The notes under the pieces are model-generated. The model had not been told where the DNA came from and did no database searches. It worked only from the letters and a program-made list of their open reading frames with translations. A program made the translations under genes and the position numbers. Below, one piece after another: positions 641 through 18,992 of a DNA stretch of 33,735 bases. The stretch's first letter is position 1. Each line of letters starts with the position of its first letter. Where the stretch lies: NCBI GenBank assembly GCA_003141095.1, contig PLKM01000084.1:42577-76311 (forward strand), written 5' to 3'. Source of the DNA: Acidimicrobiaceae bacterium (GTDB lineage Bacteria; Actinomycetota; Acidimicrobiia; Acidimicrobiales; RAAP-2).

Positions 641-828
641 CAGCACCACCTCCTGAGGACAGGCTACCGAGTCGCTCCACGTCGCCGCTCGAACGGTTCA
701 CGCATCGCGGTGGACGCAAGACCCGGCGGCATAGAAATTCGTCACGAGTTCACACCAACGACAACAAGAACCCAACGAAGTGGTGAGGTGCGCCCTTCAC
801 TTCAACGACCTCTTCAGGGCTCGGGTTA

Positions 829-863
829 CCCCGTCGGCGTCAGTCGTGCGAGCAGCGACGGGG
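829..863 (-). terminator. Hairpin just after the PEBP-like gene
   Basis: An 8-bp perfect stem (CCCCGTCG at 829-836, CGACGGGG at 856-863) with a 19-base loop begins 5 bases beyond the stop codon of the minus-strand PEBP-like gene. There is no clear U-tract, as is common for G+C-rich actinobacterial terminators. It would also separate this gene from the GNAT-AAA gene downstream. Confidence 0.5.
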
Positions 864-867
864 CTGC

Positions 868-1398
868 CTAGGGCTGCTCGTAAGTACCAATGATTATCGC
901 CCGCGCCAGCGTATGGCTGAAGAGATTGAAGCCCAGAAATGCCGGCGTGGCATTCTCGGGTAGATCCAAACTCGGAACATCGACCGCGTGAACAACGACG
1001 TAGTAGTAATGCTTCCCATGCCCCTTCGGTGGAGCCGCCCCTACGTAGCGCTTGAGGCCCGCATCATTCGCTAACCGCACGGAGCCCGGAGGAAGGCCGC
1101 TGCCCGTCTCGTCGCCCGCGCCCGACGCCAGTGACGTTGTTGACGCCGGAATATCGGCGACGGCCCAATGCCAAAAGCCTGAGGCGGTGGGTGCAACGGG
1201 GTCGTAGACGGTGACCGCGAAACTCCTCGTCTCTTGCGGGAAACCTCGCCACGAAAGCTGAGGGGAAGTGTCGGAACCCCCAGCCCCCATCAGCCCACTG
1301 CGCTGGGCTTTCGCCAACTCCCCACCGTCTACAAAATCATCTGATGCCACCTCGAATGAGGGCACGCTGAGCAGTTCTTCGTACGGATTTCTCGACAT
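868..1398 (-). CDS. PEBP / YbhB-YbcL family (Raf kinase inhibitor-like) protein
   Basis: This 176-residue protein is the usual length for bacterial YbhB/YbcL proteins. The phosphatidylethanolamine-binding fold is marked by [13 protein letters not shown] (from residue 66, ligand-pocket Asp and His) and by [12 protein letters not shown] (from about residue 125), the two conserved PEBP pocket motifs. There is no signal peptide, so it is probably cytoplasmic. The family binds anionic ligands or phospholipid headgroups; the role in bacteria is poorly known. The ATG at 1396-1398 is preceded by a GGAAGGA-type ribosome site. It appears to be transcribed alone: a hairpin follows directly, and the upstream neighbour is 427 bases away. 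Confidence 0.88.
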
Positions 1399-1825
1399 TG
1401 CTGTCCTTCCTCTTCATTGCAATCGCCTTGCGACAAGGGCGACGCCTTACCGGCACCCGCCGCCTCTTAGGCCACTGTAGTTATTCGCAGCTGGTCTTGT
1501 TCGACGCCACCGAGGAATCCACCGAAACACGCTGGGACGAATCCACCAGCGCCCGGGCATCCCCGGTCCCGAACTTCGCGCAGGTCCGCCTTCGCCCGCG
1601 AAGATACGCCCTGCGGCACTTGGCGTGCGATGTCGTGACGTCCGGGGCTGGTGAGGACCCGGGACGGCAGCCGCCGGACAGATGACGTCACTTTCGTTGA
1701 AGGAGACCACCGCGTGCTGTCCAGCGCACGGGACGCCGAGCGACTAATCGTCACAACTCGCCCTGAGCCAATGAGAAGTGATTTCGACGCTCGAGTACCG
1801 GCATCAATTAGTGTTCGACCGATCC
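1399..1825. other. Intergenic stretch, no credible gene
   Basis: These 427 bases lie between the start of the PEBP-like gene and the end of the GGDEF-EAL gene. Open frames here give low-complexity Arg/Ser/Thr-rich peptides without recognisable motifs and look like chance. The stretch should contain the promoter of the PEBP-like gene near its left end, and it holds a hairpin at 1640-1679. I see no RNA gene. Confidence 0.6.
1640..1679 (-). terminator. Imperfect hairpin downstream of the GGDEF-EAL gene
   Basis: GTCCGGGGCTG (1640-1650) pairs with CAGCCGCCGGAC (1668-1679) as an 11-bp stem with one bulged G and a 17-base loop. It lies about 147 bases past the stop of the minus-strand GGDEF-EAL gene, so it could be its terminator. 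The distance and the lack of a U-run keep this tentative. Confidence 0.3.
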
Positions 1826-4198: not shown

Positions 4199-4844
4199 GC
4201 GGCCGTTGGTTCGGGTGCCAGCAGATCGGCCGCGGCGCTCCGCTTCGACCAGGGAATTTGTACCACGACGCCCCGCGCGGCGCCATTGGCGCAGATCCGT
4301 GTTCCCGACATGCGCTCAAGTGTCTCAAGCCCTAGCCACAACAAAATCTACGAAAGCCCAACACGCGACCAATTCAAAGTACGTTATCGGCTTCAAAAGG
4401 ACCTCCCCCGGGCTCGTCAATCTCCCTCAGGAGTTCCACATCACTGTCCAAACTATCGAACCGGATGCTCCAAAAAGCGGAGCCATCGAACGAAGGTTCC
4501 CTTCACCGCGCAGTGCGCTACCCGCACCATTCCCAACGGCTCCTACTCGGCAGCTTCGCTCGCGCTAGTGCGATCACAGCCCATTCATGATGCACGCGGT
4601 GTACATAAAATGCTTGTCGTCCGCTCGCCACCTTGACCAGCTCGTTCTCGTAACCGATTGACATGGAAAGGTGGCAACAATCTCGATCTTCAACTTTTAA
4701 TCCTTGGCGAGGCACTTTCATTCTGACATCCAACCTGCGATCTTCAGAGTCAGCGACCACTCGGACGCAACGCCGTCACGGCCCTTCGATGGACTACGCG
4801 TTGCCTGTCGAACGTTGGCACATCGCAAAGGACGGATCACTTCG
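4199..4844. other. 646-base intergenic stretch, no credible gene
   Basis: All open frames here encode Arg/Ser/Pro-rich peptides without motifs or good starts, and by eye the base composition is more A+T-rich than in neighbouring genes. The stretch must include the promoter of the GGDEF-EAL gene (right to left). One dyad is visible: GCCACCTT at 4627-4634 and AAGGTGGC at 4668-4675, 8-bp arms 33 bases apart. No RNA family was recognised. It could hold a small RNA or decayed sequence, but nothing proves this. Confidence 0.5.
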
Positions 4845-5864
4845 TCACAGACTCCGAGCGTCACCCACGAAGTCTCTCAAGATGCGGCGCAGCTCCACCG
4901 TCGTCTTGTCCGCACGGGTATGAATCTCCGCGGTGATGTCGAGTGGTAACGCCAACACCTCGAACTGTGACTGCAGTTCGAGGTCCTCGTTCACCACGGC
5001 CACTTCAAAGTCAATGGCGTCACGCATTCGTTGCTCGGAACCGCCAAGGTCATCGCGCCACAGACTCGAATAGATCCGCACGGTCTCGTCATCAACCGGC
5101 GTCAAGAAGAATCCGATGACATTGGTGCCGCCCGAGTCGAGGAACTCTATGGCGAGCTCGAGATGAAATGGTGCGGTGTAGCGATACGTCAGCAGACGGC
5201 GCTGCACCAACGGTCGAATCCCCTCGGCGACGCCCGGATCTTCCCGATTGGCAAAGTCGTGCTCGTAGGCGGCGGTAAACGTGTAGCCCTCGCGGATGAC
5301 GGTGTAGTTCGGCACTTCACGAGCTTCACCCGCGCCGAAGGTTCCGACGTGGACAAAGGGGAAGTGCGCCATGTCGAGGAAGTTGTCTGCGAGTAACCCG
5401 GCGTTCGCGCGCGACTCGAGCACTGGCAGGTCCCCTTTTTGAAAGGCCGGGTCGTACGCCGCCTCGACGCTTGGTACGGGCGTCAGCGGCGGGTCGGGAG
5501 CGACGAAGACCATGCCGTGTGACTCGGTGACGGCGGCGGGCCGCTTCAACTTGGCGCGCGCCGGCAACGTCGCATTCTCTCCGAGTGCGGGGATTTCAAC
5601 GCAGACGCCGTCGGGGTCAAAGACCCAGCCGTGATAGGCGCAGCGCAGGGTGTCTCCTTCACACGTTCCCAGCGAAAGGGGCGCGAATCGGTGTGGACAG
5701 CGGTCAAGGAAGACACGCGCGTCACCGTCGCCCGAGCGGTACGTGACGTAACGCTCGCCGAGAAGTGTGAAGGCGCGAGGGGCCTCGGTCACCTCGCTCG
5801 ATCGACACAGGGGGTGCCACGCCCGACGAAGCGATGGATCGAGATTGCGGAGCCCGTCAGTCAT
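4845..5864 (-). CDS. Rieske [2Fe-2S] non-heme iron oxygenase, alpha subunit type
   Basis: This 339-residue protein has the size and layout of VanA-like (vanillate O-demethylase type) ring-hydroxylating oxygenases. The Rieske cluster ligands are C56-x-H58 in CPHRF and C75-x2-H78 in CAYHGW. The mononuclear iron site is seen as DNFLDMAHFPFVH (D160, D164, H167, H172), with the third ligand Asp likely D294 in NEDLELQSQ. It would hydroxylate or demethylate an aromatic or similar organic substrate using electrons from a reductase. No reductase or ferredoxin gene lies nearby, so a partner must be encoded elsewhere. It is divergent from the TetR gene across 167 bases that contain an operator-like inverted repeat, so control by that TetR is plausible. 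The substrate is unknown. Confidence 0.9.
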   Translation of the reverse strand: MTDGLRNLDPSLRRAWHPLCRSSEVTEAPRAFTLLGERYVTYRSGDGDARVFLDRCPHRFAPLSLGTCEGDTLRCAYHGWVFDPDGVCVEIPALGENATLPARAKLKRPAAVTESHGMVFVAPDPPLTPVPSVEAAYDPAFQKGDLPVLESRANAGLLADNFLDMAHFPFVHVGTFGAGEAREVPNYTVIREGYTFTAAYEHDFANREDPGVAEGIRPLVQRRLLTYRYTAPFHLELAIEFLDSGGTNVIGFFLTPVDDETVRIYSSLWRDDLGGSEQRMRDAIDFEVAVVNEDLELQSQFEVLALPLDITAEIHTRADKTTVELRRILRDFVGDARSL

Positions 5865-5959
5865 GAAGACAAAGTTAGTTGAGACGATTCACTGCCAATG
5901 AGGCGAAGGCCGCCGTTCAATCAAGCACGCGGTGGTCGCGAAAGTCCCGGCGGGCGCAG

Positions 5960-5979
5960 AATTGCAACATCGTGCAGGA
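5960..5979. promoter_or_regulatory. Degenerate second half-site pair upstream of the TetR gene
   Basis: AATTGCA at 5960-5966 is identical to the arm of the perfect repeat at 5995-6013. It is followed at 5973-5976 by TGCA, giving a partial dyad. It sits about 35 bases upstream, towards the Rieske gene, and may be a weaker site of the same regulator. Confidence 0.35.
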
Positions 5980-5994
5980 GTTTAGGAGATAAGA

Positions 5995-6013
5995 AATTGC
6001 AGGTTGTGCAATT
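5995..6013. promoter_or_regulatory. TetR-type operator, perfect 7-5-7 inverted repeat
   Basis: AATTGCA, five bases, then TGCAATT form a perfect 19-bp dyad 18 bases upstream of the TetR start codon and between two divergent genes. TetR-family repressors typically bind such dyads in their own promoters. Here the dyad covers the proposed -35 element and half of the spacer, so binding would block RNA polymerase. Confidence 0.7.
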
Positions 6014-6025
6014 CCGTGCGATACT
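5997..6025 (+). promoter_or_regulatory. Promoter of the TetR-ABC operon
   Basis: TTGCAG (5997-6002) and GATACT (6020-6025) are separated by exactly 17 bases. A -10 ending at 6025 places the transcription start at or within a base or two of the ATG at 6032, which implies a leaderless mRNA. The lack of a ribosome site upstream of this ATG fits. Confidence 0.5.
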
Positions 6026-6031
6026 GAGCAA

Positions 6032-6691
6032 ATGGTGGTCGATCAGGTTGGGCGTCGAGAACGAAAGAAGCTCGCAACGCATCAACTGTTGCGATCTGCC
6101 GCGTTGCGATTGGGCGCTGAGCGCGGCCTACAGAAAATCACGGTGGAGGACATCGCTGAGACGGCAGATGTCTCCATTCGCACCTTCTACGACCACTTCT
6201 CGTCGAAGGAGGACGCCATTATTGGCTTCGACGCATCTCGCGTCCTGCAGTTACGCGAAGCCCTTGTGGCGCGACCACGCAGCGAGCAGCCGCTGGAGGC
6301 CCTTCGAGCAGTACTTCGTGAACTACTCGAAGAGTCAAGCGAGGAGTGGCCCCTTCGCATGGAGGTGATCCGAACCAACCCGACCCTGCTCTCTCGGATG
6401 TTCGCGTCCTTCGCCACCGCTGAAAGGGCCATGATCGACGTCATCGCCGAGCGCACTGGTACCGACGCCAATCATGACCTCTACCCCGTCTTGGTCACCG
6501 CGGTGGCAATGGGTGCGGTGCGGGCGTCGATGAGTTCTTGGCACAGCACCGGAGAGGTTCTGCCGTTGTCGGAGATTTTTGACGCCGCGTTCGACCAGGT
6601 GAGCACCGGACTGAAGCCACCCAAGGTCACCAAGGACGACGCGCGTAACCCCGCCATCGCAAAGCCGGTCTCCAAACGGATTCGTAAGTAG
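6032..6691 (+). CDS. TetR/AcrR family transcriptional regulator
   Basis: This 219-residue protein has an N-terminal TetR DNA-binding domain: residues about 12-60 carry the helix-turn-helix with ITVEDIAETADVSIRTFYDHF and the typical SSKEDAI that follows. The C-terminal ligand domain is variable and gives no inducer. The gene stops 7 bases before the first ABC exporter gene, so the three genes probably form one operon in which the repressor controls its own efflux pump. It is divergent from the Rieske oxygenase gene, which it may also control. A perfect inverted repeat overlaps its promoter. No Shine-Dalgarno is seen; the start is probably used from a leaderless transcript. Confidence 0.92.
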   Translation: MVVDQVGRRERKKLATHQLLRSAALRLGAERGLQKITVEDIAETADVSIRTFYDHFSSKEDAIIGFDASRVLQLREALVARPRSEQPLEALRAVLRELLEESSEEWPLRMEVIRTNPTLLSRMFASFATAERAMIDVIAERTGTDANHDLYPVLVTAVAMGAVRASMSSWHSTGEVLPLSEIFDAAFDQVSTGLKPPKVTKDDARNPAIAKPVSKRIRK

Positions 6692-6698
6692 CAGTGCC

Positions 6699-8432
6699 GT
6701 GCTGACCCGCCTGCTTCGCGCCTACCTGCGCCCTTACGCGCGCCAGATCGCCATGCTCGTAACCCTCCTCGTCGCCCAGACGGTTGGGAACCTCTACCTG
6801 CCCAATCTCAACGCCGACATCATCAATAACGGCGTCATTGATGGGAATCTCCACTACATCTTGAGCACCGGCGAGGTCATGCTGGTTCTCACGCTCCTGG
6901 TCGGGGCGAGCGCCGTCGTCGCGGTGTACTGGGCGTCGCGAGTCGCAATGGGGGCGGGCGCCGATATCCGCGGAGCGGTCTTTACCCGGGTACAGGCATT
7001 TTCCGCCCGCGATATGAATCATTTCGGTACCGCGTCGCTCATCACCCGCAACACCAACGACATCCAGCAGATTCAGTTGTTCCTGCAGATGGCCCTCACC
7101 ATGATGGTCATCGCCCCGATCATGTGCGTCGGCGGAATCGTTATGGCGCTTCATGAGGGCGCGGAGCTCTCGACGCTGCTGCTCGTCGCCTTGCCCGTCA
7201 TGGGGGCATTCATTGGGATCGTCATGGTCAAGGTGATTCCCCAATTTCGGTCCATGCAGGTCAAGATCGATCGGATCAATCAGGTGCTGCGAGAGCAGAT
7301 CACCGGAGTACGGGTCATACGCGCGTTCGTGCGCAACAAGTCCGAGGCAACACGATTCGCCGGTGCGAACGCCGAGCTGACTGACACGGCGCTTCGCGTG
7401 AACCGGATCTTCGCTCTCGCCCTGCCCGTGATGATGGTGATCCTCAATCTCTCGAGCGTCGCCGTCGTGTGGTTCGGCGGCCGATTGGTCAGCGAGGGTT
7501 CCATGCCGATCGGCAACCTCACCGCGTATCTGACCTACATCTTGCAGATCTTGATGTCGGTGATGATGGCCGTGATGGTCGCCATCCTGCTTCCTCGCGC
7601 GGCGGCGAGCGCGGAGCGCGTTGAGCAGGTCCTCGATACCGTGCCGGTGGTCAGCGACCCCGCGAGCCCGACGAATCCCACTGACATCACCGGCATCGTG
7701 AAGTTTGAGAACGTCTCGTTTTCGTATCCCGGAAGTGAACGCCCGGTCGTAGAGGACCTCTCGTTCACCCTCGAACCCGGCAAGACCAGCGCCATCATCG
7801 GTGGAACGGGCAGCGGCAAGACCACGTTGCTCAACCTCATACCTCGCTTCTTCGACGCGACGACCGGCACCGTGAGCGTGAACAAGATTGACGTTCGCGA
7901 CCAGGAACAAGAAGCGTTATGGAACTCCATCGGATTCGTTCCGCAAGCCGCGTATCTCTTCAGCGGCACCGTTGCCAGCAATCTGCGCTTCGGACGACCC
8001 GACGCGACGGACGCCGAACTCTGGCGAGCCCTCGAGATCGCCCAGGCGCGCGACTTCGTGGCGCAGATGCCGGGTGGGTTGGATGCGCCTATCGACCAGG
8101 GTGGAACCAACGTCTCCGGGGGGCAGCGCCAGCGTCTCTCCATTGCTCGAGCGATCGTGAAGCGACCAGGCGTGTACCTCTTTGACGACTGCTTCTCGGC
8201 ACTCGACGCCGCAACTGACGCGCGACTTCGTGCCGCCCTCAAGGAAGCAACCCGCGATTCCTCGCTCGTCATCGTGGCTCAGCGCGTGAGCACGATCATG
8301 CACGCCGACCAGATCATCGTGCTCGACGACGGCCGAATTGCCGGCACGGGTACGCACGACGAACTACTGGCGGGTTGCGTTCCGTACCGAGAGATCGTGG
8401 TCTCCCAACTAGGTGAGGGCGCCGCGGCATGA
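6699..8432 (+). CDS. ABC exporter half-transporter, degenerate-site subunit
   Basis: This 577-residue protein has a type IV ABC exporter membrane domain (about six TM segments, residues 1-300) fused to an ATPase domain. Walker A is GGTGSGKTT (368-376), the Q-loop is in FVPQAAYLF, and the signature VSGGQ is at 472-476. Walker B ends in D496-D497, with Asp where the catalytic Glu normally sits, and the switch His is replaced by Q528 (VAQRVSTI). These are the marks of the non-catalytic subunit in heterodimeric multidrug exporters such as TM287/288, LmrCD and BmrCD. It uses a GTG start 7 bases after the TetR gene and overlaps the next subunit by 4 bases (ATGA), so equal production and pairing are expected. 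The exported substrate is unknown: a drug, lipid or metabolite. Confidence 0.93.
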   Translation: MLTRLLRAYLRPYARQIAMLVTLLVAQTVGNLYLPNLNADIINNGVIDGNLHYILSTGEVMLVLTLLVGASAVVAVYWASRVAMGAGADIRGAVFTRVQAFSARDMNHFGTASLITRNTNDIQQIQLFLQMALTMMVIAPIMCVGGIVMALHEGAELSTLLLVALPVMGAFIGIVMVKVIPQFRSMQVKIDRINQVLREQITGVRVIRAFVRNKSEATRFAGANAELTDTALRVNRIFALALPVMMVILNLSSVAVVWFGGRLVSEGSMPIGNLTAYLTYILQILMSVMMAVMVAILLPRAAASAERVEQVLDTVPVVSDPASPTNPTDITGIVKFENVSFSYPGSERPVVEDLSFTLEPGKTSAIIGGTGSGKTTLLNLIPRFFDATTGTVSVNKIDVRDQEQEALWNSIGFVPQAAYLFSGTVASNLRFGRPDATDAELWRALEIAQARDFVAQMPGGLDAPIDQGGTNVSGGQRQRLSIARAIVKRPGVYLFDDCFSALDAATDARLRAALKEATRDSSLVIVAQRVSTIMHADQIIVLDDGRIAGTGTHDELLAGCVPYREIVVSQLGEGAAA

Positions 8433-10360
8433 CGATGGCCTCGATGGGCGGACTGCGCGGCGGGGGTCCGCAGCAGATACGAAAGAGCAAGAACGTCCGA
8501 GCCACCCTGCGCCGACTGCTCGCCAAGTTGCGCCCCGAGCGAACCAAGCTGGTGCTGGCGCTCTTTCTCGGCGTCACCTCGGTCGCGTTCATGGTGTCGG
8601 GTCCCGAAATACTTGGGCGGGCCACAAACGTCCTCTTCGACGGCATAGTCAGCAAGCAACTGAAGCCCGGCACGACGAAATCGCAGGCGATTCAACTCCT
8701 CAGGGACCACGGCCACAGCCAGATCGCGTCCATGGTGGCTGGCATGAACATCACCCCGGGCGTCGGCGTCAATATAAACGACCTGGGGCTCATTCTCGGC
8801 CTCGCCGCGCTCGTCTACCTGTTTGGCGCCGCCTTCAGTTACCTCCAAGGCTTCACCATGGCCGGACTGACCCAACGCGTCATGTTCGGAATGCGCCGCG
8901 ATGTCGAGGAGAAGCTCAGTCGGCTGCCACTTCGATACTTCGACAGTCATCCTCACGGCGACATTCTCAGCCGGGTCACCAATGACATTGACAACCTCAC
9001 CACGACCATCCAACAGGGCCTCAGCCAACTGATCACCTCGATACTGACGATTGTCGGGGTCATGGGCATGATGTTCTGGATCTCCCCGCTGCTGGCGGCG
9101 GTGTCAGCCGTCACTATCCCGCTCGCCCTCGTCGTCACCCTGCTGATCGCGAAACGCTCGCAGGTCCACTTCACCGCCCAGTGGAACGAAACCGGCGCGC
9201 TGAACGGGCTCGTCGAAGAGACCCATACCGGACACGAACTCGTCCAGGTCTTCGGCCAAAGCAAATCTACGATCGGCGAATTCAGTCGGCGAAACAAGCG
9301 GCTCTACGAGGCGAGCTTTCGTGCGCAGTTCCTCTCAGGAATCATCCAGCCGTCGATGCAGTTCATCGCCAACATCAACTACGTGGTGATCGCGGTCCTG
9401 GGTGGGTACCGGGTGGCATCCGGTCTGCTCACGCTCGGGGCCGTCACCGCCTTCATTCAGTACTCGCGTCAATTCACAATGCCCATCACGCAGATCGCCA
9501 GTCAAATGAACATGCTCCAATCAGGCATTGCCTCAGCCGAGCGCGTATTCGAATTCCTCGACGCCGACGAAGAGTCCCCCGATATGACCACCCCGCCGAA
9601 CCCGGTCTCGCGACTTCACGGATCTGGCAGCGTGAAACTGGAGAACGTCACCTTCCGCTACGACGCGGACAAGCCGCTCATCGAGGACTTCAGCCTCGAC
9701 GTGGCGCCCGGCCAAACGGTGGCGATCGTTGGTCCCACGGGCGCTGGCAAGACGACCATCGTGAACCTGCTGGTGCGCTTTTACGAAATTGACGCCGGTC
9801 ACATACTGCTCAATGGCACTGACTACCGCGACTTAACCCGCGACGAGGTCCGCACCGCCTTCGGCATGGTCTTGCAGGACACCTGGATGTTTGCCGGCAC
9901 CATCCGCGACAACATTGGTTACGGAAAACCAGAAGCCTCCGACGAGGATATTGTCGCTGCCGCGAAAGCCGCCTACGTCGACAGCTTCGTTCGAACCCTG
10001 CCCGACGGCTACGCCACCATCCTCGACGAGGACGCCTCCAATCTCTCGTCAGGCCAGAAACAGCTGTTGACAATTGCCCGCGCGTTCCTGGCGAACCAGA
10101 GCATCCTGATCTTGGACGAAGCAACGAGCAACGTTGACACCCGCACGGAGGTGCTCATCCAAGGGGCCATGGCTCGGCTGCGAGAAGGTCGAACCAGTTT
10201 CGTCATCGCGCATCGGCTCTCGACCATCCGTGACGCGGACACCATCATCGTCATGGACCACGGACGTATTGTCGAGCAGGGCAATCACGACGAGCTCATG
10301 GCTCACCGGAATCTGTACTTTTCGCTCTACAACAGTCAGTTCAGCGAAGCGACCACGTAA
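8429..10360 (+). CDS. ABC exporter half-transporter, catalytic subunit
   Basis: This 643-residue protein has an N-terminal extension, an exporter-type membrane domain and a C-terminal ATPase. Walker A is GPTGAGKTT (435-443), the Q-loop is in MVLQDTWMF, Walker B keeps the catalytic pair D563-E564 (LILDEATSNVD), and the switch H595 is present. Its signature is LSSGQ (539-543), altered at the first Gly. It would face the degenerate Walker site of the partner, while the partner's intact VSGGQ faces this functional Walker site. The two subunits therefore complement each other as one working and one degenerate ATP site. Between TM1 and TM2 there is an unusually long polar insertion (about residues 70-115, with LKPGTTKSQAIQLLRDHG), probably outside the membrane. 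It is part of the TetR-ABC-ABC operon. Confidence 0.94.
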   Translation: MTMASMGGLRGGGPQQIRKSKNVRATLRRLLAKLRPERTKLVLALFLGVTSVAFMVSGPEILGRATNVLFDGIVSKQLKPGTTKSQAIQLLRDHGHSQIASMVAGMNITPGVGVNINDLGLILGLAALVYLFGAAFSYLQGFTMAGLTQRVMFGMRRDVEEKLSRLPLRYFDSHPHGDILSRVTNDIDNLTTTIQQGLSQLITSILTIVGVMGMMFWISPLLAAVSAVTIPLALVVTLLIAKRSQVHFTAQWNETGALNGLVEETHTGHELVQVFGQSKSTIGEFSRRNKRLYEASFRAQFLSGIIQPSMQFIANINYVVIAVLGGYRVASGLLTLGAVTAFIQYSRQFTMPITQIASQMNMLQSGIASAERVFEFLDADEESPDMTTPPNPVSRLHGSGSVKLENVTFRYDADKPLIEDFSLDVAPGQTVAIVGPTGAGKTTIVNLLVRFYEIDAGHILLNGTDYRDLTRDEVRTAFGMVLQDTWMFAGTIRDNIGYGKPEASDEDIVAAAKAAYVDSFVRTLPDGYATILDEDASNLSSGQKQLLTIARAFLANQSILILDEATSNVDTRTEVLIQGAMARLREGRTSFVIAHRLSTIRDADTIIVMDHGRIVEQGNHDELMAHRNLYFSLYNSQFSEATT

Positions 10361-10544
10361 CGGTTGCGCCGGAAACGTTTGGCGGCGAGGCGACCCGCCA
10401 CGCCCGCCTTCGCCACGAGCGCTTTTCTCAGCTCGGCAGATTGCCAATGACGCCCACTGGCGCATGATGAGGGTCCGAGGGGATCAATGTCGTCGGGTTA
10501 ACTAAGAGTTTCGTAAACAAGCGGTCAAAAGAGACTTGGGTCCG

Positions 10545-10573
10545 TAGACGTCGACGTCCGCATCGCCTATAAC
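10545..10573 (+). promoter_or_regulatory. Likely promoter of the SHOCT-domain gene, with a palindrome at -35
   Basis: TAGACG (10545-10550) and TATAAC (10568-10573) are 17 bases apart, 30 bases before the SHOCT gene. The -35 region overlaps the perfect 12-bp palindrome GACGTCGACGTC (10547-10558), which could be a regulator site. Confidence 0.45.
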
Positions 10574-10591
10574 TGAAATACAGGAGAAAGG

Positions 10592-10606
10592 ATGAGTCCA
10601 TTATGA
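10592..10606 (+). CDS. Possible four-codon leader ORF overlapping the SHOCT gene start
   Basis: ATG at 10592 opens a frame encoding only Met-Ser-Pro-Leu; its TGA (10604-10606) overlaps the SHOCT ATG (10603-10605) as ATGA. The AGGAG at 10582-10586 is 5 bases from this first ATG but 16 bases from the SHOCT ATG, so it fits the mini-ORF better. This could be translational coupling or just chance. Confidence 0.3.
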   Translation: MSPL

Positions 10607-10890
10607 GGCCATTCCAATACATGAACGGCGGAGGCGACGGCGGAGACGGGATTCTGGCCCTCATCTTCTTAGTACTGATCATCGGGGCGGTGATCTGGGT
10701 GGTCATGGCTCTCGTGCGCGAGCGCGATTATCGCCATCACGGCCACGACGACAAGGTCGTGCACAACGGTCCCCCCGTCGCGAAGGGTTCAGACGCGATG
10801 CGGATTCTGGATGAACGATTTGCCCGCGGCGAGATTGACGCCGATGACTATCAGCATCGCCGAGATCTCTTGCGCAGCAACCCCGAGTAG
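10603..10890 (+). CDS. Small membrane protein with C-terminal SHOCT domain
   Basis: This 95-residue protein has a short Gly/Asp-rich head, one strong transmembrane segment (about residues 18-40), a basic and His-rich stretch, and a C-terminal SHOCT motif (about 64-93: AMRILDERFARGEIDADDYQHRRDLL). SHOCT is a short domain found at protein ends and thought to mediate oligomer or partner contacts. The exact function is unknown. It stands alone between the exporter operon and an MgtA-like ATPase that begins about 490 bases further on. A promoter with TATAAC lies upstream. Confidence 0.85.
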   Translation: MRPFQYMNGGGDGGDGILALIFLVLIIGAVIWVVMALVRERDYRHHGHDDKVVHNGPPVAKGSDAMRILDERFARGEIDADDYQHRRDLLRSNPE

Positions 10891-11384
10891 GAGCGACGTC
10901 GACTACTGGAGCGGTTGACGTGATGAAGGCGCTGTCGACGTGTGTGGGCTTGAACGTTGCTCTCGTGGCAGTTTTCATTGCTGGATGATCTTCCCTCGTC
11001 GCCCAGGGCGTTACTGGTCTGCGGTACGCCAAGGACCAGGCCGGAAGATTGCTAGCAATGCGAGTTCTGAAGGTCTTCGTGCCAGGTCACGAGATGACCG
11101 GGCGGATGGTGCCAAGTCACCTATCGGTGAGTTGGGCCGTCACGAAGCGGCCAGGAATGAAGCAATCGCCATCGTGTCGGTCGACTGAACGTTCCGACGA
11201 AGTATTCGAAGTGGGGATGGTTACCCGGATAACCGCCGCTTCCCGCGTCACGAGAGTTTGCTCGCACGTCGCGCTCTATCCCTGCCCGTCCCAGGCGGAT
11301 GCTTGAGTTCGCGTTCCCGTCCAATTTTGCGAACCGTCGAATGGGCTGCGTCGCAATTCCCTGAAGACACTCAGCAGGGGAACT
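10891..11384. other. 494-base leader/intergenic region before the MgtA-like gene
   Basis: No convincing full gene is seen. One plus-strand frame starts with ATG at 10923, encodes 21 mostly hydrophobic residues (a plausible single TM peptide) and stops at TGA 10986-10988. The same frame is then open to 11306, but its product has no recognisable motif. A small dyad, CTGGTC and GACCAG, flanks a 14-base loop near 11014-11039. I do not recognise the conserved core of the M-box magnesium riboswitch here. The region may be a long 5' leader of the transporter. Confidence 0.45.
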
Positions 11385-14066
11385 GTGCGCCAGACTGTTC
11401 TCGTGGTGATCGCAACGGACAAGTTCGATGAATTGACGCTTACCGGTGCGTCGTCGCTCCCCATCGACGACGTGGTGTCGCGCCTCACGAGCCGTAACGA
11501 GGGGCTGACGTCGAGCGAGGCGAGTGAACGGCTGGTCACGTACGGCCCGAATATCCTCACGGTTCACAAGGTTCACGCGCTCATGGTCTTATGGCGTCAA
11601 CTCCGTAATCCCATACTTCTCTTGCTGCTCGGAGCGGCGCTGGTGTCCGGAGTGACTGGCGGTGGTACCAACGCAATCATCATCGCGGTCATCGTTGCCC
11701 TCAGCGTCGGGCTCGGTTTCTTCAACGAGTACGCCGCTGAAGTTGCGATGGCGTCGCTGCGTTCAAAGATCAGCCAGAACGCGCAGGTGAGAAGAGACGG
11801 CCAGATCATTGAGGTCCCCGTGGTCGCACTCGTGCCAGGCGACCTCGTGTCGCTTCGTATCGGTGCCATCGTGCCAGCGGACCTGCGTCTCGTCGACGTT
11901 GCTGAACTCGAGTGCGATGAGGGCGTGCTGACCGGTGAGTCGATGCCCGTCGCGAAGTCCGTTGAGCCGGTCGCAAAAGACACGCCAGAGCTCGCGAATT
12001 GCGCGTACATGGGAACCATTGTCCACCAGGGGTCGGCGGTGGGCGTCGTCGTAGGAACCGGCACCCGCACCGCATTTGGTCACATAGCCGCGGGACTCTC
12101 GGAGCAACCTGGCCAGACCGCATTCGAAGTCGGCCTTTCGAAGTTCTCGCGATTCCTCTTCTTGGTCGCCGCCGTGCTCACCGCCTTTGTCTTCGCCATG
12201 AACATCATCCTGTCGCGCCCGCTGATCGAGGCGCTGCTCTTCTCGCTCGCGATCGCCGTCGGCATCGCTCCCGAGATGATGCCCGCGATTGTGACCATCA
12301 GCCTGGCGTCGGGTTCCAAGGCGCTCGCCGCGAAGAAAGTGCTCGTAAAGCGATTGGTTGCGATTGAAGACTTGGGCAACATCGAGATTCTCTTCACCGA
12401 CAAGACCGGAACGCTTACCGAAGGTTCAATCACTTTCGAACACGCGCTGAGCGGCGAAGGCGAGGAGAGCGACCGTCCCCTTTTGCTGGGGCTAGTGTGC
12501 AACGAATCCACCATGGGCGATAAGGGGCCCACGGGCGGGAATTCGCTCGATCAGGCCCTCTGGTCTGCGCTCACGGAGAAAACGCACACGCTCGGCGCCG
12601 AAGCCGGCGCCTTCACTCGCAAGGCGGTGCTGCCGTTCGACCACGAGCGCCAACTCGTGTCGGTGCTCGTGGAGGACCGCGCCAAGGCACTTCTCGTCAT
12701 TACAAAGGGCGCGCCGGAAGTCTTGCTCGCTCGCTGCACGCAAGTAAGCGACACCACCCGACAGCTTCTGGAGAAACTCTTCTCCGAAGGTGAGCGGGTC
12801 ATCGCGGTGGCGAGCCGGCCCGGCACGGCTGGAGCGGTCACGCTCAGCGCCAGTGACGAACAGGGACTCAACTTTGAGGGGTTTCTCACCTTCGCGGACC
12901 GTGTGAAGGACGACGCCGGTGAGTCACTGGCGAAACTCCAGCGACTCGGTGTCGAAGTGAAGATCATCACCGGCGACAACGGACTCGTCGCCGCCAAGGT
13001 CTGCTCGCAGATCGGACTCGAGAGTACCGGGCTTTTGAACGGTACCGACGTTGAATCTCTGAGTGACGACGAATTGGCCCAGGCAATCCTGCGAACGACC
13101 GTGTTCGCTCGCATAAGTCCCGACCAGAAGTCGCGAATCATCAAAGTTGCCCGTCGCACCGGCAAGGACGTTGCCTACTTGGGCGACGGAGTGAACGATG
13201 CAGTGGCCCTGCACCACGCTGACGTCGGAATTTCAGTGGACTCGGGAACCGATGTCGCGAAGGACGCCGCCGACGTGGTCTTGCTCGACAAGGACCTCGG
13301 AGTCCTCGCCGAGGGCGTTACCGAAGGGCGAAGAATCTTCTCGAACACCATGAAGTACGTGCTCATGGCCACGTCGTCCAACTTCGGCAATATGTTCAGC
13401 GCCGCCGGTGCCTCCGCGTTTCTCTCGTTCCTGCCGATGCTTCCCTCGCAAATCTTGCTGAACAACCTGCTCTACAACGCTGGCCAGCTGGTGATTCCAA
13501 CCGACCGGGTTGACTCGGAAACACTCGCACGTCCGGCCGCATGGGACATGAAGTTCATTCGAAGGTTCATGTCGATCTTTGGTCCAATCAGTTCGATCTT
13601 TGACTTCTTGACGTTTTGGGTGATGTTGTCGATACTGCACGCACACCACGTCGAGTTTCGCACCGGATGGTTCGTTGAATCGATTGCCACCCAGACGCTG
13701 ATCGTCTACATCATTCGAACGAGACGCGTGCCCTTCTTCAAGAGTCGGCCCAGCCTCGCCATGATGTTGGTACCGACGGGCGCTGCCCTCGTCGGAGCAG
13801 TGCTTCCCTTCACGGGACTCGCCCATCTACTCGGTTTTAGCCCGCTGCCCGCTGTCTTTTTTCTCTGGCTTCTCGCCATGGTGGTGGTCTATCTCATCTT
13901 GGTGGAAGTAGCCAAGACGTTCTTCTACCGCTCAATGAAGGTACATGCGCCGGAGCGAGGAACAAGTCATGCCCAGCGTCTGGAACGTCGGGTGCGTCGG
14001 CGCGCCTCTCGCTTCATCCAACTCGAGGCCCCGAGATGGAGTCGTTCCCCTGCCAAGAAGAACTAG
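11385..14066 (+). CDS. mgtA: P-type ATPase, MgtA-like (magnesium/cation transport)
   Basis: At 893 residues it matches the length of MgtA/MgtB. The actuator motif TGES is at 183-186, the phosphorylated Asp is D339 in DKTGTLTEG, and the hinge GDGVND is at 600-605. The fourth membrane helix has PEMMP (296-300), close to the PEMLP of MgtA, and the following stretch (SGSKALAAKKVLVKRL then AIEDLGNIEIL) also resembles MgtA rather than Ca2+, Cu+ or K+ pumps. About ten membrane segments are present, with a basic C-terminal tail. It should drive cation uptake, most likely Mg2+, at the cell membrane. The GTG start at 11385 follows an AGGGGA ribosome site. Specificity is inferred from sequence resemblance only. 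Confidence 0.88.
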   Translation: MRQTVLVVIATDKFDELTLTGASSLPIDDVVSRLTSRNEGLTSSEASERLVTYGPNILTVHKVHALMVLWRQLRNPILLLLLGAALVSGVTGGGTNAIIIAVIVALSVGLGFFNEYAAEVAMASLRSKISQNAQVRRDGQIIEVPVVALVPGDLVSLRIGAIVPADLRLVDVAELECDEGVLTGESMPVAKSVEPVAKDTPELANCAYMGTIVHQGSAVGVVVGTGTRTAFGHIAAGLSEQPGQTAFEVGLSKFSRFLFLVAAVLTAFVFAMNIILSRPLIEALLFSLAIAVGIAPEMMPAIVTISLASGSKALAAKKVLVKRLVAIEDLGNIEILFTDKTGTLTEGSITFEHALSGEGEESDRPLLLGLVCNESTMGDKGPTGGNSLDQALWSALTEKTHTLGAEAGAFTRKAVLPFDHERQLVSVLVEDRAKALLVITKGAPEVLLARCTQVSDTTRQLLEKLFSEGERVIAVASRPGTAGAVTLSASDEQGLNFEGFLTFADRVKDDAGESLAKLQRLGVEVKIITGDNGLVAAKVCSQIGLESTGLLNGTDVESLSDDELAQAILRTTVFARISPDQKSRIIKVARRTGKDVAYLGDGVNDAVALHHADVGISVDSGTDVAKDAADVVLLDKDLGVLAEGVTEGRRIFSNTMKYVLMATSSNFGNMFSAAGASAFLSFLPMLPSQILLNNLLYNAGQLVIPTDRVDSETLARPAAWDMKFIRRFMSIFGPISSIFDFLTFWVMLSILHAHHVEFRTGWFVESIATQTLIVYIIRTRRVPFFKSRPSLAMMLVPTGAALVGAVLPFTGLAHLLGFSPLPAVFFLWLLAMVVVYLILVEVAKTFFYRSMKVHAPERGTSHAQRLERRVRRRASRFIQLEAPRWSRSPAKKN

Positions 14067-14163
14067 CCGGCCTGCTGAGTGGCTACGAAGTTCATCCGGC
14101 GCTCGCGGCCCGGCGCTGTGGCGTTGCACCGGTCCTCGCAGAGCCCCGTGGCCCCAGTCGTGA

Positions 14164-14601
14164 CTAGAGCAGCGCAGCGTCAAGGGTGATGGTCGTACCG
14201 GTCAGTGCCTTGCTCACCGGACACTGAGTCTTCGCGTCGTCAGCCGTCTTCTTGAAGGCCGCGTCGTCCATGCCTTCGACCGTGCCTCGCACCGTGATTT
14301 CGATACTGGAGATTCTGAAGCCGCCCGCCGGATCCGGCGAGAGCGTAACCGTCACGTCGACGTCCAGGCCAACCGGTGTACCACCGCCGGCCGCGATGAG
14401 CGCGGAAAGCTGCATCGCGTAGCACGCAGAGTGCGCGGCGGCGATAAGTTCCTCGGGACTCGTGGTGCCGGACGCATCATCGGCGGCGCGCTTGGGAAAT
14501 GAGACCTCGTACGATCCCGCTCCACTGCTCGTGAGCGTTACCTGGCCCGAACCGTCCTGCAGTCCGCCAGTCCAACTGGTGTGAGCACTTCGCTTTGGCA
14601 T
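14164..14601 (-). CDS. osmC: OsmC-family peroxidase
   Basis: This 145-residue protein is typical of OsmC. The two reactive cysteines are C60 in SPEELIAAAHSAC and C127 in CPVSKAL, with the conserved Glu of the SPEE motif next to the first. OsmC/Ohr proteins reduce organic hydroperoxides using dihydrolipoamide- or thiol-based donors. The sequence around AAHSACYAM and CPVSKAL favours the OsmC rather than the Ohr branch. The gene is convergent with the MgtA-like gene, with 97 bases between them and no clear hairpin there. An ATG with GGAGGAATC upstream gives a good start. It probably belongs to stress defence together with the Bcp protein encoded at 18537. Confidence 0.92.
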   Translation of the reverse strand: MPKRSAHTSWTGGLQDGSGQVTLTSSGAGSYEVSFPKRAADDASGTTSPEELIAAAHSACYAMQLSALIAAGGGTPVGLDVDVTVTLSPDPAGGFRISSIEITVRGTVEGMDDAAFKKTADDAKTQCPVSKALTGTTITLDAALL

Positions 14602-14676
14602 GATTCCTCCTACGTTGCTTGTGCTCAGTGTAAGTGCGCAGCGAGCGAACGCCGCACTCGAATCAATTCGAAGTGC

Positions 14677-15084
14677 CTAACTCGCTGGTGGATACGAAGA
14701 TGCCACGAAAGGACCGCCGCCAAAGAGTGTCTTGTTGGATCCGTTCACGCGGGTGTAGTGGCCGTCTCGGATTCGGTACGCGGAAATCGTGACCTGCGTA
14801 CTCTTCCAGGTGCCGCCCGCGCAGTCGGGTGTGCAGTCGTTCCACGAACCGAGGCCCGTGGCAGTCGCGGTGGCGCTGCCCCAATTGGTCCAGTGGAGAT
14901 CCTTCACGAGTGAGTTCTCGTCGGCGCAGGACAGCACGAACGTGGAAGGTGCGGTCGAAGCTTGACTGGTGCAGTCAAAGATCGTCGTAGAACTCATATG
15001 AGCCTGGTGCCAAGACAACAGGCCCGCTCCGGCCGAGCCGATGGTTAAAACAATGAGGATCAGGAAGGGAATATAGCGACGCAC
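14677..15084 (-). CDS. Secreted or membrane-anchored hypothetical protein
   Basis: This 135-residue protein begins with a hydrophobic segment (residues 5-24) that could be a signal peptide or anchor. The rest is Cys-, Trp- and Thr-rich, including DLHWTNWGSATATATGLGSWNDCTPDCAGG. This W-x2-W-G ... N-x-C-x-P-x-C-A-x-G pattern recurs, to my recollection, in many short exported actinobacterial proteins of unknown function. Four cysteines outside the membrane may form two disulfides. The function is unknown. It is divergent from the MscS-like gene, with 123 bases between them. Confidence 0.75.
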   Translation of the reverse strand: MRRYIPFLILIVLTIGSAGAGLLSWHQAHMSSTTIFDCTSQASTAPSTFVLSCADENSLVKDLHWTNWGSATATATGLGSWNDCTPDCAGGTWKSTQVTISAYRIRDGHYTRVNGSNKTLFGGGPFVASSYPPAS

Positions 15085-15207
15085 GTTTGAATAGTAGGTC
15101 CATTTCGAGGGGGCGAAACTAGAGCCTTTGGTAATGAAACACCGTCAGCAGCGTGCCCGCCGAGGTGTCGCAAAGATCAAAATGGTGGTTCGTTACAGTT
15201 GTAGGTA

Positions 15208-15852
15208 ATGGCAAACAAACGGGCTCGCGCAGCCCTAAGCGCTCGAACGCCTGAACTAGTGACAACGATCATCGTCGGACTCGTGGCCCTCGCCGCGTTG
15301 GTCGTGGGATCGGATTTGCAGAGAACTCACACCTCGCTGGCTCACGCGACGCTTTTTGAGTGGATTTGCGCCGCGGTTCTCGTTCTCTCTGGTGTAATTA
15401 CGGTTCGACGCGTTGCCGGGTTGTTCGGACGCATCATTACGCACCAATCGGTGAAATCCGCCGGGGCGGCCGTCCGGCTCGTGGCGACGGGCGTGGGCTA
15501 CGTCATCTTGCTGTTCGCAATATTTGCGGTTATTGGCGTCTCGGCCCAACGCCTGCTCATCGGAGCCGGAGTGGCCGGCGTTGTCATTGGAATTGCGGCC
15601 CAGCAGAGCCTGGCGAATATCTTCGCTTCGCTCGTGCTGCTCTTCGCTCGCCCTTTTGGAGTTGGTGACCACATTCGAATCCGCTCGGGCGCGCTTGGGG
15701 TTATCGACGTGTGGGTCGAAGGGATCGGGCTCACCTACGTCACGGTACGCACGGACGACGGAATACTTATGATCCCTAACTCCGCCATGCTCGCTTCGGG
15801 CATTGGCCAACTTGCGACCCTGTCGGAAAAGACCGGGGAAAATGATCATTAG
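15208..15852 (+). CDS. Short MscS-type mechanosensitive channel
   Basis: This 214-residue protein has about four hydrophobic segments, then the pore helix and beta domain of MscS: GIAAQQSLANIFASLVLLFARPFGVGDHI is split across residues 131-160, followed by a Gly-rich turn (SGALGVIDVWVEGIG) and MIPNSAM. Channels of this family open under membrane tension and release solutes during osmotic downshock. The protein ends about 20 residues after the PN motif, so the large C-terminal cytoplasmic alpha/beta domain of E. coli MscS is missing. A TACAGT hexamer 8 bases before the ATG suggests a very short leader. Family call firm; activity untested. Confidence 0.85.
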   Translation: MANKRARAALSARTPELVTTIIVGLVALAALVVGSDLQRTHTSLAHATLFEWICAAVLVLSGVITVRRVAGLFGRIITHQSVKSAGAAVRLVATGVGYVILLFAIFAVIGVSAQRLLIGAGVAGVVIGIAAQQSLANIFASLVLLFARPFGVGDHIRIRSGALGVIDVWVEGIGLTYVTVRTDDGILMIPNSAMLASGIGQLATLSEKTGENDH

Positions 15853-16110
15853 TCGTTCCCGCTTCGAGATCGAACCCCCGTCGATGGACGTCGACGATGG
15901 ACGGGACCCTTCATTCGCGACGTTTCACCCGGCCGATCTTTAAGAATGTTGTAAAGAGCTCGGACCGAGGCATCAATCTCCGAGGGGACAAAATGTTCCT
16001 CCTTATACTGAGTACTGGCGTAGGTAGCGGGCGGAACCGGAGAATCGATTTCCGCCCGACCTATCTCGTCACATCCACTGCACGGCAAGTCTTAGATAGC
16101 GGAGCACCCC

Positions 16111-17562
16111 ATGAAGTTCCCACGAACAGCACTCCTGGTTGCCTCATTGGTCACCTTGGTGTTCGCCGCGCCCGCCAACGCCAGCTCCGATCCCGCGTGG
16201 CAGAGTGCCCGGGTGGCGGCTCTTCCCGCCGGTGGAACGGGAGTGTATGGCGGGTACCTGCCCTTCCTCTCTTGCCCGGCGGCGGGAGACTGTGTCGCCA
16301 GCGGCAACTACGTTGACTCTTCTGGCATTGATCGCGGGCTTCTGCTCAATCAGATCAATGGCGTCTGGCGGTCGCCGACACCGGTGACGCCGCCCGCCAA
16401 TGCCGTTGTGAAGGACGGCCTGACGGTGCTGGGCGTGTCGTGTGGATCGGTCGCCCATTGCAGCGTGGTGGGCACTTACTACGACGCCGCCCTTAATCAA
16501 CTCAGCTTCATCGCTGACGAAGTCGCCGGTAGGTGGCTCGCGGCGAGAGAGGTCTCCCTGCCCGCCAACTCCCTGAAGAGCAACCAAGTTTCTGCGGTCC
16601 ACTCGGTCTCGTGCCGCTCGGCGGGAAACTGCAGCGCAGTTGGCACCTACGACGTGAATGCCAGCCCTACGTCGCTGACCGAGGGTTTTGTGGAGGATGA
16701 GATCGCCGGCAAATGGCTGACCGCCCGCGAAGTCCGATTGCCTGCTGGCATCAGCGGCAATCCTTACGTATCGCTCGATCAGGTTGCCTGTGGGTCACCG
16801 GGAAACTGCAGCGCGGTTGGCTCGTACATCGACACCAACAATGTGACCCACACCCTCGTGGTCGATGAGGTCAGTAGGACGTGGAAGACGGCGCAGTCCA
16901 CGTTCCTGCCGGGTGACACCAGCCCCTTCGCCGGAGCGACGCTCAGCGAGGTGGCGTGCGTCAGCGCCGGAAACTGCAGCGCCGTGGGAACCTACAACGC
17001 CTCTGGAGCTGGCGTCGAGGGTCTCGTCGCCAACGAAACCCGCGGAGCCTGGGGCCGGGCGAGTGAACTGCGCATGCCGGCGAGCGCGGCGGCGAACCCG
17101 CAAGTGCTGCTCTTCGGATTTCAGGGGATTTCCTGCGCCTCGGTTGGAAACTGCGCCACCGGCGGGCAGTACCTGGATAGGAGCGGCAAGTACCAAGGGT
17201 TTCTCGTGAACGAGGTGCACGGCGCGTGGCGGGGTTCGAGCGAGCTCATCTTGCCGGACGGAGCTCTACAAACGAGCCACAACGGAGGCGTCGTTTCGGT
17301 CTCTTGCTCCACAGCCGGAAACTGCAGCGCCGGAGCCGCGTACCTTGACGCCGCGGGAAACTATCAAGCGCTCATTGTCAACGAAGTCGGCAACGTTTGG
17401 AGAGCCGGGGCCAAGCTCACCCTGCCCGCCAACGCCGCCAGCGTCGGCGTTGGCGGAGGCGTCTACGCTCTCGCCTGTCAAAGAGGCGGCGCCTGCTCGG
17501 CTGTAGGCAGCTACTTGCGCGGTGCCACGACCTACTCCGGCTTTACGGTGAACGCGCCGTAG
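16111..17562 (+). CDS. Exported protein with eight Cys-paired repeats
   Basis: This 483-residue protein has a Sec signal peptide (residues 1-25, with likely cleavage after ANA). The mature part is almost entirely eight tandem repeats of 56-59 residues. Each has a C-x5-C pair (C55/61, 111/117, 168/174, 227/233, 283/289, 342/348, 399/405, 456/462), usually as SC-x-SAGNCSAVGTY, followed by a conserved G-x-L-V-x-E-x2-G-x-W segment and an LPA motif. The regular length and beta-rich character suggest a propeller or solenoid, with each Cys pair possibly a small disulfide; this is inference. No enzyme motif is seen. A TATACT hexamer at 16004-16009 may be the -10 element. It could be a surface or secreted binding protein. 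Function unknown. Confidence 0.85.
   Translation: MKFPRTALLVASLVTLVFAAPANASSDPAWQSARVAALPAGGTGVYGGYLPFLSCPAAGDCVASGNYVDSSGIDRGLLLNQINGVWRSPTPVTPPANAVVKDGLTVLGVSCGSVAHCSVVGTYYDAALNQLSFIADEVAGRWLAAREVSLPANSLKSNQVSAVHSVSCRSAGNCSAVGTYDVNASPTSLTEGFVEDEIAGKWLTAREVRLPAGISGNPYVSLDQVACGSPGNCSAVGSYIDTNNVTHTLVVDEVSRTWKTAQSTFLPGDTSPFAGATLSEVACVSAGNCSAVGTYNASGAGVEGLVANETRGAWGRASELRMPASAAANPQVLLFGFQGISCASVGNCATGGQYLDRSGKYQGFLVNEVHGAWRGSSELILPDGALQTSHNGGVVSVSCSTAGNCSAGAAYLDAAGNYQALIVNEVGNVWRAGAKLTLPANAASVGVGGGVYALACQRGGACSAVGSYLRGATTYSGFTVNAP
16273..17496 (+). repeat. Eight tandem coding repeats of about 170 bp
   Basis: The coordinates span from the first Cys of repeat 1 to the last Cys of repeat 8. The repeat unit is 168-177 bp. 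Similarity is visible at DNA level around GGAAACTGCAGCGC, which recurs near 16624, 16801, 16969 and 17319, suggesting expansion by duplication with partial later divergence. Confidence 0.75.
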
Positions 17563-17649: not shown

Positions 17650-17834
17650 GCCTTTTCTCCAGTTACCCGAAAGGTTTCATTTAATTACCACCGTTCGATA
17701 GCACAGCTTTCACCTTGCGGTAACCAAGATTCTTTACGTTGGCCTGATGACACGTGAGCGATCTCGCACTCCCTGGCCGGGCCGGTCACGTGTCGCATTT
17801 ACTGGGTTGGCGTCGGTCTCTCGACGAGGCGAGC

Positions 17835-18527
17835 ATGGCTGATCCCGAGGGGCGTAGCGTCGTGATGGTCGTCGAGGACGAAGAGAGTTACCAGGACGCG
17901 CTCAACATCGGACTGACCGTCGAGGGTTTCGTGGTGGTCGCGGCAAGCACCATCACCCAGGCCCGCGAAGTCATGAGTAACACGAAGCCCGATCTGGTGC
18001 TGCTCGACGTGATGCTTCCCGACGGCTCGGGCATTGACTACTGTCGCGAGATCTACGACACCTCTCGAATTCCCGTAATCATGGTGTCGGCTCGAACCTC
18101 TGAGGTTGACATCGTGCTCGGATTGGAGATCGGGGCGGCCGACTACGTCACGAAGCCGTATCGGCTTCGTGAGCTGGTTGCTCGGATGCGGGCGGTGCTT
18201 CGCCGCCCCGTGACCATCGACGAGGACGAGATCGTCACCTTCGGCGACCTGCGCATTGACTTCGTTCGCCGCACCGTCACCCGACGAGGCGTCGAGATCG
18301 AGCTGAGCCGCAAGGAGTTCGACCTCCTCGCGCTCTTCGCCTCGCGTCTCGGACAGGTGGTCACCCGCGAGGTCTGTCTCGACACGCTGTGGTGGGGCCT
18401 CGAGCTCTCCGATACTCGAACCCTCGACACTCACGTCAAACGCCTACGCCAAAAGATCGAGGACGATCCCGGGAGCCCCCGCCACCTGATCACCATCCGT
18501 GGAGTGGGCTTTCGCCTGGACGTTTAG
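17835..18527 (+). CDS. OmpR/RegX3-type two-component response regulator (orphan here)
   Basis: Counted from ATG 17835, this is a 231-residue protein. The receiver domain has the acidic pair in VVEDEE, phospho-acceptor D58 in LLDVMLPDGSG, Ser in VIMVSAR and Lys in YVTKPY. The C-terminal winged helix (about 130-230) contains LSRKEFDLLALF, RTLDTHVKRLRQKIE and the RGVGFRL wing. The frame could begin at GTG 17754, but the added 27 residues look like noise, and the ATG has a GAGG-containing upstream sequence. No sensor kinase gene is adjacent, so its partner is encoded elsewhere. The WWGLELSDTRTLDTHVKRLR segment resembles mycobacterial RegX3. Target genes are unknown. Confidence 0.9.
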   Translation: MADPEGRSVVMVVEDEESYQDALNIGLTVEGFVVVAASTITQAREVMSNTKPDLVLLDVMLPDGSGIDYCREIYDTSRIPVIMVSARTSEVDIVLGLEIGAADYVTKPYRLRELVARMRAVLRRPVTIDEDEIVTFGDLRIDFVRRTVTRRGVEIELSRKEFDLLALFASRLGQVVTREVCLDTLWWGLELSDTRTLDTHVKRLRQKIEDDPGSPRHLITIRGVGFRLDV

Positions 18528-18536
18528 TCTGGCCCC

Positions 18537-18992
18537 ATGCAAACAGGCGACCTCGTTTCCGATTTCACTCTCTCGGACCAGGCCGGCGTTCCGCGCACGC
18601 TCAGCACGGTTCTCGAGGCCGGTCCTGTCGTGCTCTTCTTCTATCCCGCGGCCATGACCAAGGGCTGCACCAAGGAGTCGTGTCACTTTCGCGACTTGGC
18701 GGCCGAGTTCGTTGCCCTTAGTGCCCAGCGCGTCGGCATCTCAATGGACAGCGTTGACCGGCAAGCCCAGTTCACATCGAAAAATAACCTGGACTACCCG
18801 CTGCTCGCCGACGTCGACGGAGCGGTAGCCAAACAGTTCGGCGTCAAACGCGCCGTCGACTTCTTGAGGGTCAAGCGAACGACGTTCGTGATCGGTCAAG
18901 ATCGCCGAGTGATCGACGTCATCACCAGTGAGATGAATATGAATATCCACGCCGAACGCGCTCTCGAGGCGCTGGCGAAACTAAAGCCCTAA
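18537..18992 (+). CDS. bcp: Bcp/PrxQ-type thiol peroxidase
   Basis: This 151-residue protein has a thioredoxin-like peroxiredoxin fold. The active site P37-x3-T41-x2-C44 (FYPAAMTKGC) holds the peroxidatic Cys. C49 five residues later is the usual resolving Cys of the PrxQ/Bcp class (GCTKESC). Such enzymes reduce H2O2 and organic peroxides with thioredoxin. It starts 9 bases after the response regulator gene ends, so the two are probably co-transcribed. Its stop overlaps the stop of the convergent E2 gene by 4 bases. Confidence 0.93.
   Translation: MQTGDLVSDFTLSDQAGVPRTLSTVLEAGPVVLFFYPAAMTKGCTKESCHFRDLAAEFVALSAQRVGISMDSVDRQAQFTSKNNLDYPLLADVDGAVAKQFGVKRAVDFLRVKRTTFVIGQDRRVIDVITSEMNMNIHAERALEALAKLKP

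Follow-up and report, generated by a model that had tools for sequence, protein, structure and literature searches.

Several described groups of beta-propellers, that is, rings of four-stranded antiparallel blades, lie close to the protein analysed here. The Asp-box propellers of the YCF48/HCF136-like, PSII_BNR (PF14870) type are its nearest family by profile, weakly, and the beta-propeller domain of CylK is its closest PDB fold by Foldseek, at 12% identity; CylK is described as seven-bladed, fused to a Ca2+-binding domain and carrying Ca2+ sites that bridge its blades (PMC8916777). Bacterial lectins of the PLL/PHL type, PLLs being reported as seven-bladed (PMC12203525), and CV39L are propellers among the best fold matches (8–13% identity), and the VCBS supercluster, the 'actinolectins' and the tachylectin-like propellers are secreted actinobacterial propellers too, as our protein is predicted to be. 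According to PMC8023676, a G and a W are conserved in the C–D loop of VCBS-group propellers, a likeness to the present family, and DxDxDG is not universal within that group, so that its absence alone is not decisive.

The protein is encoded in a 33,735-nucleotide stretch of Acidimicrobiaceae DNA (assembly GCA_003141095.1, contig PLKM01000084.1, positions 42,577 to 76,311), called the window below. It differs from YCF48/PSII_BNR proteins in lacking the Asp-box, in carrying a Cys pair in each A–B hairpin and in having eight units; from CylK in being eight-bladed in its predicted model; and from the VCBS group in lacking DxDxDG and in an FG-GAP profile score at null level. The fold is known and the variation modest: what is unusual is the stabilisation, in a family without a name. 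We read the protein as a secreted, disulfide-stapled eight-bladed beta-propeller that acts as an extracellular binding scaffold, with a probability of about 0.6.

Gene, export signal and repeat units

The propeller is predicted to be the product of an ATG-started ORF of 483 amino acids (16111–17562, + strand), and a dN/dS of about 0.2, estimated against two 73%-identical orthologues, argues that this ORF is truly coding and under purifying selection. A GGAG (16101–16104, +) is a likely ribosome-binding site, and CTTATACT (16002–16009, +), which lies roughly 100 nt before the start codon and is invariant across six aligned upstream regions (the window and five others), is a possible −10 element; a consensus promoter scan returned 0 sites. 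Residues 1–24 (16111–16182, +) have the make-up of a Sec-type signal peptide (charged start, hydrophobic core and A-N-A cleavage motif, which places the presumed cleavage site), and the protein is therefore likely to be exported, in keeping with a preliminary description that suggested it may be displayed or secreted. In the AlphaFold2 model this region is a low-confidence helix (residues 5–17).

All 16 cysteines of the protein fall into eight C-x5-C pairs, one per unit, with first cysteines at residues 55, 111, 168, 227, 283, 342, 399 and 456 and successive spacings of 56, 57, 59, 56, 59, 57 and 57 residues; eight such pairs arose in none of 20,000 shuffles of residues 26–483, the shuffle maximum being five. 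Both the strict pairing and the occupation of the whole mature protein by the eight units had been described beforehand and hold, while the accompanying G-x-W / LPA pattern is present but looser than stated, with G-x-W in five of the eight tryptophan strands and LPA in four of eight (read by eye). The DNA similarity between units was likewise borne out, as a 50-nt stretch common to seven of the eight units, six of them at 60–76% identity to the reference copy.

From the units and the model together, blades 1 to 3 are assigned to 16234–16401 (Cys55–Cys61), 16402–16572 (Cys111–Cys117) and 16573–16749 (Cys168–Cys174), and blade 5 to 16918–17094 (Cys283–Cys289), all on the + strand. Conservation adds to the assignment of four further + strand units: blade 4 (16750–16917, Cys227–Cys233), with a conserved B–C loop; blade 6 (17095–17265, Cys342–Cys348), with the best-conserved D–A loop and a G-G-Q-Y strand; blade 7 (17266–17436, Cys399–Cys405), with a conserved N-G-G-V-V loop; and strands A–C of blade 8 (17437–17559, Cys456–Cys462), with a conserved G-G-x-Y loop.

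Predicted fold and relation to known propellers

An AlphaFold2 model computed from an alignment of 38 sequences has a mean pLDDT of 91.6 and a pTM of 0.89 and consists of eight four-stranded blades, with strands A, B, C and D recurring in every unit. This confident model, a ring of four-stranded antiparallel blades as in known propellers, supports the propeller that had been proposed from the sequence, as do its fold matches. By Foldseek the top PDB match is CylK (7fh6, E 8.6e-11), with PLL/PHL lectins at about 1e-6 among the matches listed, and among those listed by VIA-align are the WD40 protein TBLR1 (Z 27.8, rmsd 3.1 over 321 residues), CylK (24.4–24.9) and the lectin CV39L (21.4). The best 50 PDB structure matches are presumably all propellers, as far as we recognise them.

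Within each unit of the model the first cysteine is placed close to where strand A ends and the second close to where strand B begins. Every pair thus flanks a tight A/B hairpin turn, with its two cysteines predicted to be near each other. Of the 252 orthologue units to which the search pattern applied, 197 have a glycine four residues past the first cysteine, a placement that, by standard hairpin geometry, fits a three-residue turn setting two cysteines opposite each other. Because the pairs flank hairpins, aligned orthologues keep them and the genome holds two VKOR matches above cut-off, eight intra-blade disulfides are likely, as the label 'disulfide-stabilised' had supposed; the VKOR genes are a possible oxidation route for these cystines.

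Unit 8 is missing the tryptophan strand and the N-terminus has one ahead of unit 1, around W30 (residues 27–39; 16189–16227, +), from which we infer that this strand is the outermost of blade 8 and closes the ring, an assignment that follows the fold topology. Propellers usually close, according to PMC3797127, by assembling one blade from strands of the two termini.

Sequence searches did not place the protein in a described family: Pfam and NCBIfam gave no usable match (best E 0.2 and 0.16), so that none to a well-described family was found at a useful score, a PDB sequence search gave none, and the open-access literature among the matches listed held no description of such a family. Two-unit profiles were compared for the own family (100 segments drawn from the first 140 of the 225 prepared) and for FG-GAP, PSII_BNR, WD40 and PQQ (from fetched loci), against nulls of 12 column shuffles. 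PSII_BNR was the only one of the four propeller families above its shuffled null, scoring 18.4 and 20.0 by direction against a null maximum of 12.3 (12 shuffles), with an alignment in register over the whole blade, from strand A to the tryptophan, at an HHalign probability of only 7–12%. FG-GAP (8.1), WD40 (8.8) and PQQ (7.8, from a target alignment of only 19 segments) stayed inside their nulls; as a yardstick from the same run, WD40 scored 23.8 and BNR 13.8 with PQQ. The strict Asp-box S-x-D-x-G-x-[TS]-W occurs in 0 of 32 orthologues and a loose pattern in four, DxDxDG in the A–B loop (VCBS/FG-GAP) in 0 of 32, and for WD40 there is no Pfam match and the WD dipeptide appears once each in five of 32 proteins. 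We take the PSII_BNR score, weakly, as a lead to the Asp-box group and not as membership.

A phage or plasmid origin was considered and set aside, tblastn with this protein giving no match among 72,556 plasmid and 50,697 phage records. A viral peptide-pattern search matched two stretches, neither encoding a relative, and the PHROGs row was insignificant. Among viral proteins, 91 fold matches reach E 0.001 or lower, the best of them 1.3e-11; identity is low, and they are taken as shared fold only. A 14-unit relative has plasmid matches in four records, at 25–32% identity.

Unit number in orthologues and relatives

Some member of the family occurs in 34 of 37 genomes of the genus, the window genome included, and, on our reading, an orthologue in 32 of the 37; three genomes (G001, G013, G026) have no match and two (G006, G016) other members only, several of the genomes without an orthologue being incomplete assemblies. 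In wider searches at E 0.001, with the own genome and genus included, matches came from 35 of 247 genomes at class level and 13 of 396 at phylum level; the four relatives found that carry a name are metagenome assemblies of Acidimicrobiaceae. The window genome encodes one other family member, of 599 residues.

All 32 aligned orthologues, window gene included, have eight units (the G021 orthologue, split over two contig ends, was left out), and C-x5-C is strict throughout in 30 of them, L056 and L059 differing in spacing. For 253 of 256 units the best match is the same-position unit of another orthologue. This fixed number, together with the same-position matches, argues that the eight units were already present before these genomes diverged and are specialised by position. 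The preliminary description had read the similarity between units as ongoing expansion and had suggested comparing repeat number among strains; that number is constant, and mean unit identity is 32% in the window protein, just below the 34% median of 94 family ORFs. The fixed count, the same-position matches and the 32% identity speak against an expansion still under way here, and we reject that reading for this protein. At synonymous codons, agreement between units (210, against a permutation mean of 187, with 41 of 2000 permutations reaching 210) is slightly in excess, so that a weak residue of shared ancestry, or a local bias, may be present.

Mean internal identity is higher in some relatives, such as L077 (71%) and L093 (57%), which look more recently amplified, in line with the ongoing blade amplification described in PMC9218822. 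L077 (1349–2425, −) has five units and is a candidate for recent amplification.

Relatives were counted in family ORFs from regions chosen among the best matches and not drawn at random: 96 had two or more unit hits, 81 were complete within their locus, and 34 orthologue rows were set aside (two being the same window gene, and L069–L071 being placed there on length and score rather than on gene neighbourhood). By the Cys motif, the remaining 47 comprise 15 ORFs with eight units, 16 with seven, nine with 13–15, and seven with 5, 6, 9, 11 or 12; by HMM hits, 18 have seven, 12 eight, two nine (the extra hit in one of these being short and N-terminal), nine 13–16 (seven of them 14), and six other numbers. 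Clustering at 7–8 and 13–15 is what closed rings, single or double, would give; seven of these 47 ORFs fall off one or two rings of 7–8, and some of the seven may hold units that the pattern missed. The model of a 14-unit relative is moderate (pLDDT 77.0, pTM 0.65), too weak for a choice between one ring and two; YCF48 chains match it at Z 15.6–16.5, behind CylK at 22.0.

Additional domains are present in part of the family. An fn3 match occurs in one of the 38 alignment members, and fn3, TIG, Big_3_5 or He_PIG domains lie above cut-off in seven of 20 longer relatives scanned; Ig-like and fn3 domains are frequent in extracellular binding proteins. DM9, DUF5980, DUF2510, DUF6087 and other weak Pfam rows in relatives were discarded as covering short stretches or few members. 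One ORF (L026, 1143–3479, +) joins a family propeller to a SecDF P1-head-like domain (over cut-off).

Conserved loops, alternative readings and genomic address

Loop conservation among orthologues differs between blades. Mean information in the D–A and B–C loops is 2.94, 2.75, 2.51 and 2.40 bits in blades 6, 7, 4 and 8, and 1.73–2.15 bits in the rest; blades 6–8 rank second of 56 triples in this respect, a triple picked after viewing the conservation and among eight units only. D–A and B–C loops lie on the same top face of propellers, as stated for the structure treated in PMC8916777. Because loop conservation peaks in blades 4 and 6–8 and these loops share one face, we infer a putative one-face binding surface formed mainly by these blades.

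The sequence of events suggested by these data would begin with export by the signal peptide, followed by formation of eight cystines outside the membrane, each linking strands A and B of one blade (to judge from the model hairpins, their conservation and the VKOR genes). The N-terminal strand would then complete blade 8 and close the ring, and a ligand, which might be a glycan, a wall polymer or a protein, would be bound through the conserved D–A and B–C loops of one face. If this reading is true, it assigns to an unannotated secreted protein family a fold, a way of folding and a face predicted to bind; it offers a naturally disulfide-stapled propeller whose blades are testable one by one, and an approach to the question of what soil bacteria of the little-studied Acidimicrobiaceae type place outside their cells. 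Tentatively, and with the odds somewhat against so broad a statement, the family may be a separate extracellular propeller lineage with many members in Acidimicrobiia; a cystine per A–B hairpin would replace metal or Asp-box stabilisation in it and one or two 7–8-bladed rings would form rigid recognition modules, the window copy being an old, position-specialised member with one conserved ligand face.

An alternative interpretation is that the protein is a structural or surface-layer-like scaffold, with rings packing together and no specific ligand. The export signal, the lack of a conserved charged site, the fixed unit number and the Ig-like and fn3 domains of some relatives would all agree with this, but we consider it unlikely because the loops of some blades are better conserved than those of others, a pattern that points to a single functional face. 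Less probable still, the protein could be an exported enzyme that acts on polysaccharide, such as a sialidase- or lyase-like one. Sialidases and glycoside hydrolases are indeed numerous among the Foldseek matches listed, and the top one, CylK, is an enzyme; however, of the 87 mature-protein positions with at least 90% conservation none holds a charged residue (D, E, K, R, H), and of the 123 with at least 80% four do (E twice, D twice), leaving no conserved catalytic acid or arginine set, and neither a Pfam/NCBIfam family match nor a strict Asp-box was found in the searches above. A catalytic propeller is thus disfavoured, and the protein is probably not an enzyme.

Downstream of the propeller gene lie two constant neighbours in conserved order, neither counted as part of the system: a response regulator (17754–18527, +; Pfam Response_reg and Trans_reg_C) and an AhpC-TSA/Redoxin (Bcp-like) protein (18537–18992, +; Pfam). 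The gap between propeller and regulator is 72–227 nt at 22 of 31 loci and 707–1637 nt at nine; L057, the only one of 32 loci without the regulator downstream, also lacks the Bcp-like gene. The Bcp-like protein was searched in eight genomes, of which two (G016, G026) gave distant matches only; the loci fetched from the other six (one, L131, ending inside the regulator) gave no propeller match at E 0.001. Since the regulator/Bcp pair also occurs without a propeller, these neighbours are a stable address of the propeller rather than established partners, and an operon with the regulator is disfavoured on the same ground and by gaps of up to 1637 nt. That the propeller partners the pair, as its exported sensor or target, is very improbable: the regulator follows on the same strand at 31 of 32 orthologue loci tested, but the pair stands without a propeller in L126, L129 and L130 (where the upstream sequence covers some 4 kb or more) and in L127 and L128 (contigs ending about 1.1–1.2 kb upstream), and nine of 31 loci have 707–1637 nt between the genes, seven of these with an opposite-strand ORF in between.

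Other genes were seen around this address. Seven loci (L032, L033, L034, L036, L038, L039 and L040) share an opposite-strand ORF of 306–405 amino acids between orthologue and regulator, which we take to resemble acetamidase/formamidase; the ORF there in L045 is presumably transposase-like. In genomes without a propeller at this place, a small protein with S-I-G-S / S-F-S-I-G-S type repeats lies near the regulator (L126, 3896–4375, −; L127, 383–898, −), and L130, also from a genome without a propeller, has at its left end (−), near the regulator, an exported-looking protein of 835 amino acids that is kelch-like by eye. In the window itself, a small protein that looks exported and has no Pfam match (14677–15084, −) also lies near the orthologue in several genomes, and a GGDEF-EAL protein (1826–4198, −) would be expected to act in cyclic-di-GMP turnover.
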